Shown in pieces: positions 12,006 to 43,297 of a stretch of 63,632 nucleotides of DNA. Origin of the DNA: Pseudotamlana agarivorans (GTDB lineage Bacteria > Bacteroidota > Bacteroidia > Flavobacteriales > Flavobacteriaceae); NCBI RefSeq assembly GCF_001642835.1, contig NZ_LXEI01000020.1:1-63632 (forward strand), written 5' to 3'. The notes under the pieces were generated by a model. That model worked only from the letters and a program-made list of their open reading frames with translations, did no database searches and had not been told where the DNA came from. The translations under genes and the position numbers were made by a program. The number at the start of each line of letters is the position of its first letter. Within the stretch, counting starts at the first letter, position 1.

Positions 12006-12110
12006 GCGCTGCGTTAGGGATAGCAGCGGAAATCCTTTTTGTGAGGTACGAATAAAAAGATTGCAGCGTATAGCCCGACCTCCCGATTGGGATCGGGAGT
12101 GTAACGCCCT
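12006..12110 (+). ncRNA. Structured RNA element, possibly Flavo-1-type
   Basis: The stretch can fold compactly: GCGTTA (12011-12016) pairs with TAACGC (12102-12107), CTTTTT (12035-12040) with AAAAAG (12054-12059), and CTCCCGAT (12080-12087) with ATCGGGAG (12092-12099). It has conserved-looking single-stranded words GATAGCAGCGGAAATCC and GCAGCGTATAGCCCGAC that I recall from many Flavobacteriia intergenic regions. Reading frames cross it on both strands, but they look like translated RNA, not proteins. I suspect the Flavo-1 RNA family, from memory only. It lies upstream of lysS. The strand is inferred from the direction of lysS. Confidence 0.5.
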
Positions 12111-39756: not shown

Positions 39757-40422
39757 CTATAAAATCTCGAGTAATTCAACTTCAAAAATTAGAGTTGCAT
39801 AAGGTTTTATGGGGCCTCCTGGTCTTGGGTTCGCACCATAAGCCAAGTCATGAGGAATAAAAAATATGTATTTCGACCCTTCAGGCATGAGCTGCAAACC
39901 TTCGGTCCAGCCTTTAATAACTTGTGAAACTTCAAATTCTATGGGATCACCACGATTTACCGAACTATCAAAAACAGTTCCATCGATTAAGGTACCATGG
40001 TAGTGTACCTTAACTTTAGAGTCTTTAGTTGGCCTTGCTCCTGTGCTTTCTTTTAAAATCTTGTACTGCAAACCTGACGTCGTGGTATAAACCCCTTCTT
40101 TAGTTTTATTAGCCTTTAAAAAAGTGGTCCCTGGTTCTGATAGCTTCTCTTCCTCTGCTTTTTGTTTTTTTAGAAAATAATTTCTAATAACGTTCTTTGC
40201 AGCCGCTTCATCAATTAAAGTGTTCCCATCATTTAAACTGGCAACAAAGGCTTCAAAAAAGACATCACTATTAAATTCATCAAAGCTTGATTTTACATTT
40301 TTTGCAACATCAATTCCAATGGCATAACTCACAGAATCTACGGCTGTTTTTATTTGACTTTGCCCCTGGGTAAGCGAACAAACACACAGGAAAACTCCGA
40401 TTTTTATTTTAAGATAATTCAT
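39757..40422 (-). CDS. FKBP-type peptidyl-prolyl isomerase, signal-peptide form
   Basis: This 221-residue exported protein has a signal peptide (MNYLKIKIGVFLCVCSLTQGQ), an N-terminal helical dimerisation-like domain (about 25-105) with VSYAIGIDVAKNVKSSFDEF, and the FKBP catalytic domain (about 115-221). [39 protein letters not shown] and [23 protein letters not shown] are visible, with the active-site Tyr, Asp, Trp and Phe. It is a paralogue of the gene upstream and lacks the lipobox. The two form a tandem pair separated by a terminator, so they are not a single transcript. Confidence 0.92.
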   Translation of the reverse strand: MNYLKIKIGVFLCVCSLTQGQSQIKTAVDSVSYAIGIDVAKNVKSSFDEFNSDVFFEAFVASLNDGNTLIDEAAAKNVIRNYFLKKQKAEEEKLSEPGTTFLKANKTKEGVYTTTSGLQYKILKESTGARPTKDSKVKVHYHGTLIDGTVFDSSVNRGDPIEFEVSQVIKGWTEGLQLMPEGSKYIFFIPHDLAYGANPRPGGPIKPYATLIFEVELLEIL

Positions 40423-40531: not shown

Positions 40532-41236
40532 TTATTTAACTTCTAAAAGCTCAACATCAAAAATTAATGTAGCATAAGGTTTAATTGGTCCTCCTGGTCT
40601 TGGGTTCGCACCATAAGCCAATTCTTGAGGAATGAAGAACTTATACTTAGCGCCTTCAGACATTAATTGTAAACCTTCTGTCCATCCTTTAATAACTTGA
40701 GTTACTCCAAATTCAGCAGGCTCTCCTCTATCAACTGAACTATCAAAAACAGTTCCGTCAATTAAAGTACCATGATAATGAACTTTTACTTTCGAATCTT
40801 TTGTAGGCTTAGCTCCTGTACCTTCTTTTAATACGATATATTGTAAACCACTAGCTGTAGTTTGCACACCTTCTTTAGATTTGTTTGACTCTAAAAATGC
40901 AACACCTTCTTCTTTGTTTTTCTCACCTTCTTCAGCACGCTTAGCAGCTTCTTCTTGTTGTTTCTTTTGGAAAAAAGCTCTAACAACCTTTTGTGCCGTT
41001 GCTTCATCCAACAATATGTTTGTTGAATCTAAAACATTCGTAAAACCTTGAACGAACAATTCATTATCAAAATCATCAAAACTCATTTTTACATTCTTTG
41101 CAACATCCATACCTATAGCATAGGATACAGAATCCAACTCGGTTTTAATAGGTTTATTTGAAACCGCAGACTGATTATTACAAGATACCACTAGTAAAAC
41201 TAAAGTCAAAAGACTTAAACATTTCATTATTTTCAT
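40532..41236 (-). CDS. FKBP-type peptidyl-prolyl isomerase, lipoprotein form
   Basis: This 234-residue lipoprotein has the lipobox [11 protein letters not shown]. The dimerisation-like helical domain and the FKBP domain are as in its paralogue 39757: [31 protein letters not shown] and [23 protein letters not shown]. It differs by an extra charged insertion ([15 protein letters not shown]) between the domains. It catalyses prolyl isomerisation during folding of envelope proteins. The close similarity of the two genes points to local duplication. A TACATTTG -7 box lies 27 nt upstream (41263-41270). Confidence 0.93.
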
Positions 41237-41270: not shown

Positions 41271-41342
41271 CAAAATTATAGGGACAAAAAAAAGAAATTA
41301 ATCGGGACCAAAACTCGTAATCTAGCTTTTCAAAATAAGCAC

Positions 41343-41432
41343 AAAAAAAACTGTTCAGCTTTCTCGGAAACTGAACAGTTTTAAACTAACCAAACATTTT
41401 ATATGAAAAACGAACCACTGTTTTACATTAAC
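41343..41432 (-). ncRNA. Three-copy small RNA, copy 1
   Basis: The minus strand gives a compact unit of about 90 nt. It has a 5' hairpin CTGTT-N7-AACAG (complement of 41418-41434), an unpaired linker with GGTTAGTTT, and an intrinsic terminator AAAACTGTTCAG / CTGAACAGTTTT with a 12-base loop and eight U. From the hairpin foot to the -7 box it is identical to the two other copies over about 70 nt. There is no coding sense on this strand. It lies upstream of the FKBP gene on the same strand, and its terminator should keep it separate. The exact 5' end is not known; 41431-41434 is likely. Confidence 0.75.
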
Positions 41433-41436
41433 AGGA

Positions 41437-41514
41437 CAAAGTTCCGAATAAAGTGAGATCCATTTTATGATAATTGTCATAAACCCACACCAGTGCTGTT
41501 AAACATCTGTTAAA
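41437..41514 (-). promoter_or_regulatory. Regulatory region of small RNA copy 1
   Basis: The -7 box is GAACTTTG (41437-41444), one base off consensus, and no TTG occurs at -33. The palindrome TTATGATAATTGTCATAA (41465-41482) is centred 36.5 nt from the box edge, about -41.5 from the start. Two GTTAAA hexamers begin at 41498 and 41509, 11 bp apart. The weak core elements suggest that an activator is required, with a CRP/FNR-type site being the most natural reading of the palindrome. Confidence 0.65.
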
Positions 41515-41634
41515 CGACTCTTAAAAATTACTAAAACACAAGCTGAAAGCTACTTTTTGGGGGCCTCTTACGAATGATTTCATTTCTTTTAGAATGGTAT
41601 TCAGCACCCATTTTTAAGTTCTAAAAATCGAAGC

Positions 41635-41724
41635 AAAAAAAACTGTTCAGCTTTCTCGGAGGCTGAACAGTTCTAAACTAACCAAACATTTTATATGAAA
41701 AACGAACCACTGTTTTACATTAAC
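41635..41724 (-). ncRNA. Three-copy small RNA, copy 2
   Basis: Same architecture as copy 1, on the minus strand: 5' hairpin, identical linker and a terminator with eight U. In the terminator loop two bases differ from copy 1 (GGAGGC against GGAAAC), which extends the stem by one C-G pair rather than disturbing it; one T near the stem foot is C. It lies about 290 nt from copy 1 in the same orientation. Confidence 0.75.
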
Positions 41725-41728
41725 AGGA

Positions 41729-41806
41729 CAAAGTTCCGAATAAACCAAAGTGTATATTATGATAAATATCATAAACCTTCGCCAGTGCTGTTAAACATCT
41801 GTTAAA
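41729..41806 (-). promoter_or_regulatory. Regulatory region of small RNA copy 2
   Basis: GAACTTTG (41729-41736), palindrome TTATGATAAATATCATAA (41757-41774) centred 36.5 nt from the box edge, GTTAAA at 41790 and 41801. Spacing is identical to copy 1 although the bases between the sites differ widely. Confidence 0.65.
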
Positions 41807-41936
41807 TACACAAAGGACTAATTATGGCAACCGGACAACTCTGAGTGAGAATTTCAAATTAAATACACTAATTCATTTTTTGTCCGAAAACAGCTATAAT
41901 CCTATCGTTTTATTAGGGTTAATCACATTTTATTAA

Positions 41937-41951
41937 TGTTAAATTTTAACA
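41937..41951. promoter_or_regulatory. Perfect palindrome TGTTAAATTTTAACA upstream of the esterase
   Basis: A 15-bp inverted repeat with one central base. Its half-site GTTAAA is the same hexamer seen twice upstream of each small RNA copy. It lies about 190 nt before the esterase ATG and faces small RNA copy 2, so it could act on either side. The protein that binds is unknown. Confidence 0.4.
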
Positions 41952-42141
41952 TAACATTAGGGAATTTAATGAAAATACGTATTTTTCAGCCAAAATAACA
42001 CCATAACCGATCTCAAAAATATTCCATGAATATTTTAAAAGGTTAAAAGCCCAAATCAACTAACCGTAGTTCTTTGCATTTTTCAACACTTCTCCCTCAA
42101 TATAGTTGAAGTTGCCTTGAGCTCGAACTAAAATTGACATC

Positions 42142-43095
42142 ATGAACTTATTATCCAAAATTAGTAGTCTACTATTATTTATATTATGCTGTACTCCTAA
42201 TTGGACTATCGGACAAACAAGTGAAAGCACCTACAATTTGGTAGATATTTATAAGGCAACCAAACAGAATTACGATTCTGCTAAAATGATTACACCTTTA
42301 AATACCGATGACATTAAATATAATGAGGACATTGTATATAAGAAAACCCGTTATAAAAAATTAGAATTAGACGTCTACTGTCCTTCTAAAAAACCTAAAA
42401 AACTTATGCCCGCGGTCATACTCGTTCATGGAGGCGGTTGGCTTACTGGTCAAAAAGAAAACCAACGTGTTATGGCACAACACCTGGCACAAAACGGTTT
42501 TGTTGGTGTTTCAATTGCCTATAGTTTGAGTTTAGAAGCGCGATATCCTGCTGCCGTTTTCGACGTGAAGGATGCCGTAAGGTGGGTTAGAAAAAACGCT
42601 AAGAAATACAAAATAAATCCAAACCAGATTGCTGTAATGGGTGCCGATTCTGGAGGTTTATTAGCCACTTTGGCAGGAGTAACATCTCACCTTAAAATTT
42701 TTAGCACAGATGATGAACCTTCTGATAAAATTCAAGCAGTTATAAATATAGATGGCATTGTGTCGTTCGTTCATCAAAACGCCCCCGCTGAAAATAGCAT
42801 GGCCAGCATTTGGTTAAACGGTTCAAGAAATAAAAATGAAAATGCCTGGAAGGAAGCTTCTCCTCTGCAATACGTTGGAGAACACACCCCTCCTATACTC
42901 TTCATTAACGGCTCGAACCCAGAAATTAATGCTGGAAAAAGCGATATGACAACTTTATTAAAAATATTTCAAACCTACACCGAAACTCGTACCATCCCAA
43001 ACGCTCCGCCAGCATTTTGGTTAATGGATCCTTGGTTTGATACGACCTTGAATTATAGTGTAGACTTTCTAAATAAAGTATTTGGACAATCGTAA
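42142..43095 (+). CDS. Exported alpha/beta-hydrolase (esterase-like), catalytic His apparently lost
   Basis: This 317-residue secreted protein has a signal peptide (MNLLSKISSLLLFILCCTPNWTIGQ). It belongs to the HSL/BD-FAE-like alpha/beta-hydrolases: VILVHGGGWLTG is the oxyanion-hole motif (about residues 94-105), and MGADSGGLLATLAG holds the nucleophile Ser in GxSxG-like form. In relatives the terminal His stands before FW in a PHxFW block; here the sequence is NAPPAFWLMDPWF, with Pro instead of His, so the triad looks incomplete. The gene lies between sRNA copies 2 and 3 and near a CE12-like remnant. The leader contains AACTAACC (42058-42065). Probably a decaying saccharide esterase; activity doubtful. 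Confidence 0.75.
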   Translation: MNLLSKISSLLLFILCCTPNWTIGQTSESTYNLVDIYKATKQNYDSAKMITPLNTDDIKYNEDIVYKKTRYKKLELDVYCPSKKPKKLMPAVILVHGGGWLTGQKENQRVMAQHLAQNGFVGVSIAYSLSLEARYPAAVFDVKDAVRWVRKNAKKYKINPNQIAVMGADSGGLLATLAGVTSHLKIFSTDDEPSDKIQAVINIDGIVSFVHQNAPAENSMASIWLNGSRNKNENAWKEASPLQYVGEHTPPILFINGSNPEINAGKSDMTTLLKIFQTYTETRTIPNAPPAFWLMDPWFDTTLNYSVDFLNKVFGQS

Positions 43096-43124
43096 TACTT
43101 ACCGACTAGCATTAAGGTTGGTGC

Positions 43125-43214
43125 AAAAAAAAACTGTTCAGCATTCTCGGAAACTGAACAGTTCTAAACTAACCAAACATTTTATATGAAAAACGAACCA
43201 CTGTTTTACATTAA
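43125..43214 (-). ncRNA. Three-copy small RNA, copy 3
   Basis: The third copy on the minus strand has the same 5' hairpin, linker and terminator, with nine U and one loop change (GCATTC against GCTTTC). The body outside the hairpin is identical to copies 1 and 2. It lies 30 nt after the esterase stop codon, antisense to any esterase read-through, so its terminator hairpin may also end that transcript. Confidence 0.75.
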
Positions 43215-43219
43215 CAGGA

Positions 43220-43297
43220 CAAAGTTCCGTATAAAGTAAGATGCATTTTATGACAAATGTCATGAACCCATATTCCCCGTGTTAAAATGACGTTAAA
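43220..43297 (-). promoter_or_regulatory. Regulatory region of small RNA copy 3
   Basis: GAACTTTG (43220-43227), palindrome TTATGACAAATGTCATGA (43248-43265) whose core ATGACA/TGTCAT is a perfect inverted repeat, centred 36.5 nt from the box edge, and GTTAAA at 43281 and 43292. The last two are part of an exact 11-bp tandem repeat GTTAAAATGAC. Confidence 0.65.

Follow-up and report, generated by a model that had tools for sequence, protein, structure and literature searches.

What are the three near-identical units that lie within 2 kb of one another on the minus strand of contig NZ_LXEI01000020.1 of Pseudotamlana agarivorans? The window, which is the whole stretch of 63,632 nucleotides that was analysed, forms contig C12 of a 3.83-Mb genome, and the initial annotation took the units in it for a multi-copy family of regulatory RNAs of about 90 nt, placed around an esterase and an FKBP gene and not recognised as any named family. 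The fixed promoter geometry, the kept linker, the covarying terminator and the copies in five Tamlana genomes described below uphold the family reading. Beyond it, we lean on balance towards the view that these would be small RNAs (sRNAs) switched by an FNR-type regulator and covering the start codons of susC mRNAs.

A repeat search of the window recovered a 188-nt family with three members (41327-41514, 41619-41806 and 43110-43297; 100, 88 and 82% identity), which placed the three copies where the initial annotation had them, with copy 3 predicted to extend to 43215. The 188-nt repeat outreaches the RNA units, so the homology runs upstream into the promoter region. Every copy carries the terminator hairpin followed by 8-9 T, and the copies differ, as had been described, in the terminator loop or at the base of its stem. 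The claim that the minus strand holds no coding frame also stands: no listed open reading frame (ORF) of at least 50 amino acids (aa) lies over the units on that strand, and the ATG codons inside the predicted RNAs meet a stop after 1 and 3 codons. The count of three holds within the 2 kb; a genome search added a fourth near-identical copy, overlooked before, on contig C33 beyond the window. An esterase gene adjoins the copies in two relatives, Tamlana haliotis and Tamlana sp. 2_MG-2023, and an FKBP gene adjoins them in the latter; esterase, FKBP and LacI genes are absent from the 3.1 kb around the fourth copy. These neighbours are not evidently targets. The terminator, palindrome and background-gene counts given here refer to an 864-kb sample of the host genome. 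Among its 955 terminator-like sites, TTTTTCAT..GTTAGTT occurs upstream of the 3 window copies only, and in 40 Markov-resampled sets this combination with a terminator had a mean of 0.0 and a maximum of 0. With the seed pair at just 3 of the 955 sites, we rejected the idea that the seed is a general habit of 3' untranslated regions (3'UTRs) in this genome.

The 5' end of the copies was placed 5 nt past TTTG (41432 for copy 1), because the loci of FopS, the Bacteroides sRNA family compared at the end, read TTTG-N4-GTG and its Rfam model begins at GTG. In all 13 copies from five Tamlana genomes, the elements [AT]TTAAC-N5-TTTAAC, palindrome ATGAYNNNNRTCAT, CTTTG and seed follow one another at identical spacing, with the palindrome centred at -41.5 from the inferred start in 13 of 13. 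The promoter motif columns reach 97% majority identity versus 72% for the spacers, a footprint that shared ancestry of the copies affects as it does the SusC tallies below (phylogenetic non-independence). In the 864-kb sample the palindrome occurs at 10 intergenic and 2 coding sites, as compared with 0-2 intergenic sites for five control motifs; 3 of the 10 are the window copies, 4 lie upstream of genes of named type and 3 are unassigned. The palindrome precedes hemE (PF01208), a nitronate monooxygenase gene, a cytochrome c gene and a thioredoxin-like gene; outside the sample it adjoins hemN (TIGR00538, 430 bits; the match begins near an internal start, residue 36), and it also adjoins an FNR-like gene on contig C5, the neighbour of which resembles the N-terminal part of a copper P-type ATPase at a score under the family cut-offs. 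Since the palindrome adjoins hemN, hemE, the cytochrome c gene and the FNR-like gene, it is likely that an FNR-type activator drives the sRNA copies; class II activation and the FNR reading draw on the known behaviour of the Crp/FNR protein family. Two proteins with the PF00325 Crp helix-turn-helix are encoded in the genome, and the palindrome was not found within 3.1 kb around the second, non-C5 gene. The direct repeat at its fixed place is TTTAAC-N5-TTTAAC in 10 copies and ATTAAC-N5-TTTAAC in 3, and it has an 11-nt period. Direct repeats of that period are used by OmpR-type regulators.

The three predicted RNAs fold better than shuffled sequences (z of -2.4, -3.4 and -2.4), with the terminator as the main contributor, and in a consensus structure of 32 sequences 7 of the 10 pairs of the terminator stem show two-sided compensatory change. 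The linker, which had been described as single-stranded, is so in part of its length: GUUUGGUUAGUUU is 79% and AUAAAAU 68% unpaired in the predicted fold, and UUUUUCAU about 33%. The 5' hairpin CTGTT/AACAG fared less well. Of the 13 Tamlana copies, 4 can form all five pairs and 9 can form four of them, some pairs being G-U and one preserved by a two-sided change; the inferred start trims the first arm to GTT, and the hairpin has a probability of about 0.47 in the predicted fold if all five bases are transcribed. It is not in the conserved core of the consensus structure that includes other genera. Thus, the 5' hairpin appears to be kept in Tamlana weakly at best, and it was dropped as a defining feature, though not disproved, on its incomplete pairing in 9 of 13 copies and the loss of part of its first arm at the inferred start.

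Read as its reverse complement, the linker gives AAACTAACCAAACATTTTATATGAAAAAC, and in Flavobacterium limi the sRNA query matched the antisense of a SusC-type receptor gene start with 93% identity over 29 nt. We compared the seed pairing at the predicted start codons of all 18 own-genome SusC genes above the TIGR04056 cut-off (L059, which forms one gene with L060, was excluded) with that of 523 other genes of the sample. The median was -15.5 kcal/mol for the SusC starts (n=18) and -12.4 kcal/mol for the other genes (n=523; p=3.1e-5), and the SusC starts also paired better than genes starting with ATGAAA (n=145; p=6e-4). None of 150 shuffled seeds, run on 120 of the 523 background genes, matched the SusC preference, and the FopS seed, used as a specificity control on 300 of them, showed no preference for the own-genome SusC starts (p=0.44). 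The second-subfamily seed had the preference (p=4e-5; 0.006 versus the ATGAAA genes); a longer version of the seed gave p=0.0018 and was superseded by the shorter-seed test. On two Bacteroidaceae SusC genes from 400 kb, an underpowered set (n=2), the FopS seed gave p=0.025 and the Tamlana seed p=0.28. The best own partner, at -33.5 kcal/mol, is the SusC gene at C1:410521, which lies between hybrid regulator and SusD genes near a GH3 gene. As far as the partial text of PMC6847099 goes, Flavobacterium start sites have no Shine-Dalgarno sequence and rely on upstream adenines at -3, -6, -12 and -13, which pairing with the seed would cover.

A search with the seed-core pattern returned 92 stretches of named genomes and 7 viral contigs, with 112 places in all, which a script divided into 38 sRNA-type places, including 5 viral ones, 68 places antisense to ORFs of at least 80 aa and 6 others; two places counted as sRNA-type (L275, L279) and one counted as other (L332) are probably SusC genes cut by the end of the stretch. 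Among the 68 antisense places, 62 are SusC-like and 6 are not. The sRNA-type places in genomes are found chiefly in Tamlana, Algibacter and Aestuariibaculum, and three Algibacter genomes and T. fucoidanivorans have 8-13 model matches each, which further backs the family reading. Our model R1 matched 138 of 299 Flavobacteriaceae genomes at E<=0.01 and 8 of 299 below 1e-8, and in 395 genomes of the phylum it had matches at E<=0.001 in 2, none outside the family. Because its weaker matches lean on generic terminators, we relied on those below 1e-8 and rejected the model as a wide detector. Within the genus there are two further subfamilies with the seed in common and different promoters: TAnnTTTG stands 23-26 nt ahead of the seed in 10 of 10 distinct units, and CGACA-N5-TGTCG matches exactly at 3 loci and nearly so in a further repeat unit. 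Contig C11 of the host genome has two second-subfamily copies, near 11.1 kb and 35.6 kb, with the same type of seed and a TAAATTTG box; the centre of their upstream CGACA-N5-TGTCG palindrome is 38 nt before the last G.

We propose that every unit is a free-standing intergenic sRNA gene with its own promoter and terminator, at which a Crp/FNR-family activator would bind ATGAYNNNNRTCAT at -41.5, a class II position, so that oxygen scarcity would turn on all copies together and the copy number would act as dosage. The C5 protein is the favoured candidate, because the palindrome stands beside its own gene and the neighbouring gene is copper-ATPase-like. The RNA of about 90 nt would terminate at the intrinsic terminator, and its linker GUUUUUCAUAUAAAAUGUUUGGUUAGUUU, the reverse complement of the SusC-type start region AACUAACCAAAC...AUGAAAAAC, would pair with several susC mRNAs over the start codon and the A-rich segment before it and block initiation, so that fewer glycan importers would be made under limited respiration. 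Transcription, the role of FNR as activator, and repression and its direction are what we infer here from sequence.

Several results weigh against this proposal. The enrichment at SusC starts is moderate, with p=0.016 for the upstream part alone against all genes and 0.03 against the ATGAAA genes; many individual non-SusC starts pair as strongly as typical SusC starts, and no own-genome SusC gene has an exact match to the seed pattern. The 62 SusC places are not independent, since 61 belong to one Flavobacterium-type ortholog family (three subclusters at 80%) and the remaining one is a Pedobacter gene. The UUUUUCAU segment of the seed is mostly paired in the predicted fold, as given above. On the promoter side, the -7 box AACTTTG has no TA of TAnnTTTG; at hemN and the C5 FNR-like gene the palindrome is upstream only with an internal-methionine start, the longest ORFs overlapping it; and it is the non-C5 Crp/FNR protein that matches Fnr in NCBIfam, below cut-off, the C5 protein not having been compared with NCBIfam. 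A search for an RRM protein (PF00076), the type of partner known for FopS, gave 0 genome matches at E<=0.001, and the Bacteroides control was positive.

A real sRNA could have other partners: its main targets could be other secreted or outer-membrane mRNAs that start ATGAAAAA(C), or GUUUGGUUAGUUU could mainly be a site for an RNA-binding protein, with SusC incidental. Besides the sRNA-type places, a looser exact pattern finds two gene starts in the own genome, neither of them SusC (a thioredoxin-like secreted protein, judged by eye, and another secreted protein), 6 of the 68 antisense places elsewhere are non-SusC genes, and GGTTAGTT-type segments recur ahead of terminators of unrelated genes. 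That SusC starts outpair other ATGAAA-starting genes, and that CTAAC lies within 35 nt upstream in 6 of 18 SusC genes but in 2 of 145 ATGAAA-starting genes, speaks for SusC as the target, and we regard this alternative as unlikely, if worth keeping in mind. A different input to a real sRNA seems to us somewhat less probable still. With two Crp/FNR proteins encoded and the direct repeat as fixed in 13 of 13 copies as the palindrome, the latter may serve another Crp-family protein or an unrelated one, or the OmpR-like repeat may dominate, and the trigger would then not be oxygen; however, the genes that bear the palindrome include oxygen-independent hemN, hemE, the cytochrome c gene and the C5 FNR-like gene.

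The tandem, multi-copy occurrence would also suit a non-functional or mobile repeat, or sequences transcribed only within longer mRNAs. This is very improbable, since conservation is confined to motifs at spacing fixed in 13 copies, the stem changes are compensatory, each unit has its own promoter and terminator, and the surroundings of the fourth copy differ. The plus strand keeps ATGAAAAAC, and one could imagine there a leader hairpin ahead of a short MKN peptide or a start region. On the other hand, plus-strand ORFs at the sRNA-type places run to 7-57 aa with no common continuation, on which a plus-strand peptide was rejected, and the preserved plus-strand frame that the initial annotation named as a refuting case did not turn up; it is the minus strand that bears the T run and the -7 box, and no T run trails the plus-strand hairpin, which leaves this reading scarcely credible.

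In Bacteroidota, feeding on glycans centres on SusC importers. If the proposal holds, a marine Flavobacteriaceae family that the FopS model does not recognise would follow the same start-codon logic under an oxygen-type regulator, low oxygen would be predicted to lower SusC translation, and the start-codon strategy would be general, with the seed evolving along with the host SusC leaders. A Bacteroidota-wide class of start-codon antisense sRNAs, the seeds of which track the SusC consensus of each lineage and the inputs of which vary (FNR-type, CGACA-N5-TGTCG, clpB/hsp20 3'UTRs, phages), is a tentative extension that we find rather doubtful. A less secure set comprises 83 weaker family matches that we read (23 with loci and 60 of the further ones listed); 8 of them follow the end of clpB (one assignment checked, the others made by a common C-terminal sequence) and 3 follow an hsp20 gene (one checked). 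In several genera these clpB/hsp20 3'UTRs have TTTTTTCATA..GTTAGTTAGTT variants and a terminator, one without the CAT part. The pattern suggests sRNAs from heat-shock 3'UTRs that share this seed logic. Eight more of the 83 matches, drawn from eight genomes that represent different genera, contain a near-identical sRNA-like element, TTTAAGTATTGGTTTTTCATAATTTAAAGTTTGGTTGGTTATTTAG; in 6 of the 8 a TAnnTTTG box precedes it by 36-37 nt, and in 5 of the 8 it lies 117-147 nt past a putative hppD gene.

Six IMG/VR viral contigs carry TATCTTTG, 9 nt and the seed, with a terminator in the five that are not cut off, and one seed-bearing viral contig is a tailed phage by its portal and endolysin matches. 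In a broader phage scan, 16 of the 119 places listed have a terminator and lack an opposing ORF, and 12 of these 16 have a TAnnTTTG box; some box-seed-terminator places are near-identical to one another and lie on contigs other than the six. Silencing of SusC receptors by phage-borne sRNAs is a possible reading of these arrangements: phage sRNAs could, if it is true, lower the SusC-type receptors used by other phages, and RNA-based receptor silencing would become testable.

The features of the copies are collected in Table 1. Elsewhere in the window, a Flavo-1 RNA (RF01705) is present at 12009-12084 (54.3 bits), and another follows the fourth sRNA copy at a distance of about 240 nt (L004:1846-1995). 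The adjacent genes at 39757-40422 and 40532-41236 are FKBP-type, with DNA parts that repeat at 71-72% identity; the Pfam comparison covers the second gene (40532-41236).

Table 1. Coordinates in the window of the features of the three predicted sRNA copies.
Feature	Coordinates	Strand	Remark
sRNA copy 1, predicted 90 nt	41343..41432	-	start inferred 5 nt past TTTG; FopS 22.9 bits vs cut-off 56
sRNA copy 2, predicted 90 nt	41635..41724	-	FopS 25.7 bits
sRNA copy 3, predicted 91 nt	43125..43215	-	FopS 23.6 bits
Antisense seed, copy 1	41383..41411	-	GTTTTTCATATAAAATGTTTGGTTAGTTT, reverse complement of SusC-type start region
Antisense seed, copy 2	41675..41703	-	seed comparison
Antisense seed, copy 3	43166..43194	-	seed comparison
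Intrinsic terminator, copy 1	41343..41382	-	stem-loop and U run
Intrinsic terminator, copy 2	41635..41674	-	fold, covariation
Intrinsic terminator, copy 3	43125..43165	-	fold, covariation
-7-like box AACTTTG, copy 1	41437..41443	-	mean majority identity 99%, 13 copies
-7-like box AACTTTG, copy 2	41729..41735	-	13-copy comparison
-7-like box AACTTTG, copy 3	43220..43226	-	13-copy comparison
FNR-type palindrome ATGATAATTGTCAT, copy 1	41467..41480	.	centre -41.5 relative to inferred start
FNR-type palindrome ATGATAAATATCAT, copy 2	41759..41772	.	13-copy comparison
FNR-type palindrome ATGACAAATGTCAT, copy 3	43250..43263	.	13-copy comparison
Direct repeat TTTAAC-N5-TTTAAC, copy 1	41498..41514	-	possible second regulator site
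Direct repeat TTTAAC-N5-TTTAAC, copy 2	41790..41806	-	13-copy comparison
Direct repeat TTTAAC-N5-TTTAAC, copy 3	43281..43297	-	13-copy comparison

How do the Tamlana copies relate to known sRNAs? FnrS of Escherichia coli is activated by FNR at low oxygen, is present in a single copy and depends on Hfq. The Tamlana copies, with their FNR-type site at -41.5 from the inferred start, are like FnrS in the proposed logic of an FNR-activated sRNA, and unlike it in their unrelated sequence, other predicted targets and multiple copies. Within the same bacterial family, Rfp18 of Flavobacterium psychrophilum is predicted to act through its third stem-loop on metalloprotease mRNAs, as the available portion of PMC9723704 describes it, and is set apart by this predicted mode of action. 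A literature search of limited coverage found no sRNA of the present kind reported for Flavobacteriaceae, the sRNAs of PMC9723704 not being compared by sequence. GibS of Bacteroides thetaiotaomicron resembles the copies in that it binds translation initiation regions, and differs in its two seeds (R1 and R2) and the promoter motif PM2 (PMC11697453, in part).

FopS (RF04319) is a family of paralogous sRNAs of B. thetaiotaomicron for which post-transcriptional control of SusC has been shown, according to excerpts of PMC11697453. It is the best Rfam match of all three window copies (22.9, 25.7 and 23.6 bits; E of 0.4-1.4 in a 2.1-kb search), far under its Rfam gathering score of 56, so that the absence of a named family holds at the threshold even if a nearest one can be given. 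The Rfam search had no FopS match at the fourth copy or at 18 loci of relatives, and across 395 phylum genomes FopS exceeds its cut-off in 5, none of them from Flavobacteriaceae. A weak FopS match elsewhere in the host genome, at C47:167847-167915 (35.6 bits), exceeds the scores of the window copies. Because the Rfam scores, the loci of relatives, the family-restricted range of R1 and the RRM search were all negative, membership in FopS was rejected and the copies were not filed under it. They also differ from FopS, as far as it is characterised in those excerpts, in that the RbpB gene for its RRM partner was not found in the Tamlana genome by the PF00076 search, an FNR-type palindrome lies upstream of the copies, and the predicted RNA is longer, about 90 nt as compared with 65-70. 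With the FopS R1' seed they share only UUUUUCAU and the GGUUA segment, the rest of the Tamlana seed fitting the SusC starts of its own lineage. The likeness is in the design: like FopS in the same excerpts, the copies are multiple and mostly intergenic (four near-identical and two of the second subfamily in this genome), they have a single-stranded seed, though less so in UUUUUCAU, followed by an intrinsic terminator, UUUUUCAU is antisense to AUGAAAAA, and the seed is aimed, in silico here, at the own SusC translation start regions. These likenesses suggest that the mode of action is that of FopS, and taken together the comparison speaks for a separate, FNR-wired, FopS-like sRNA family.

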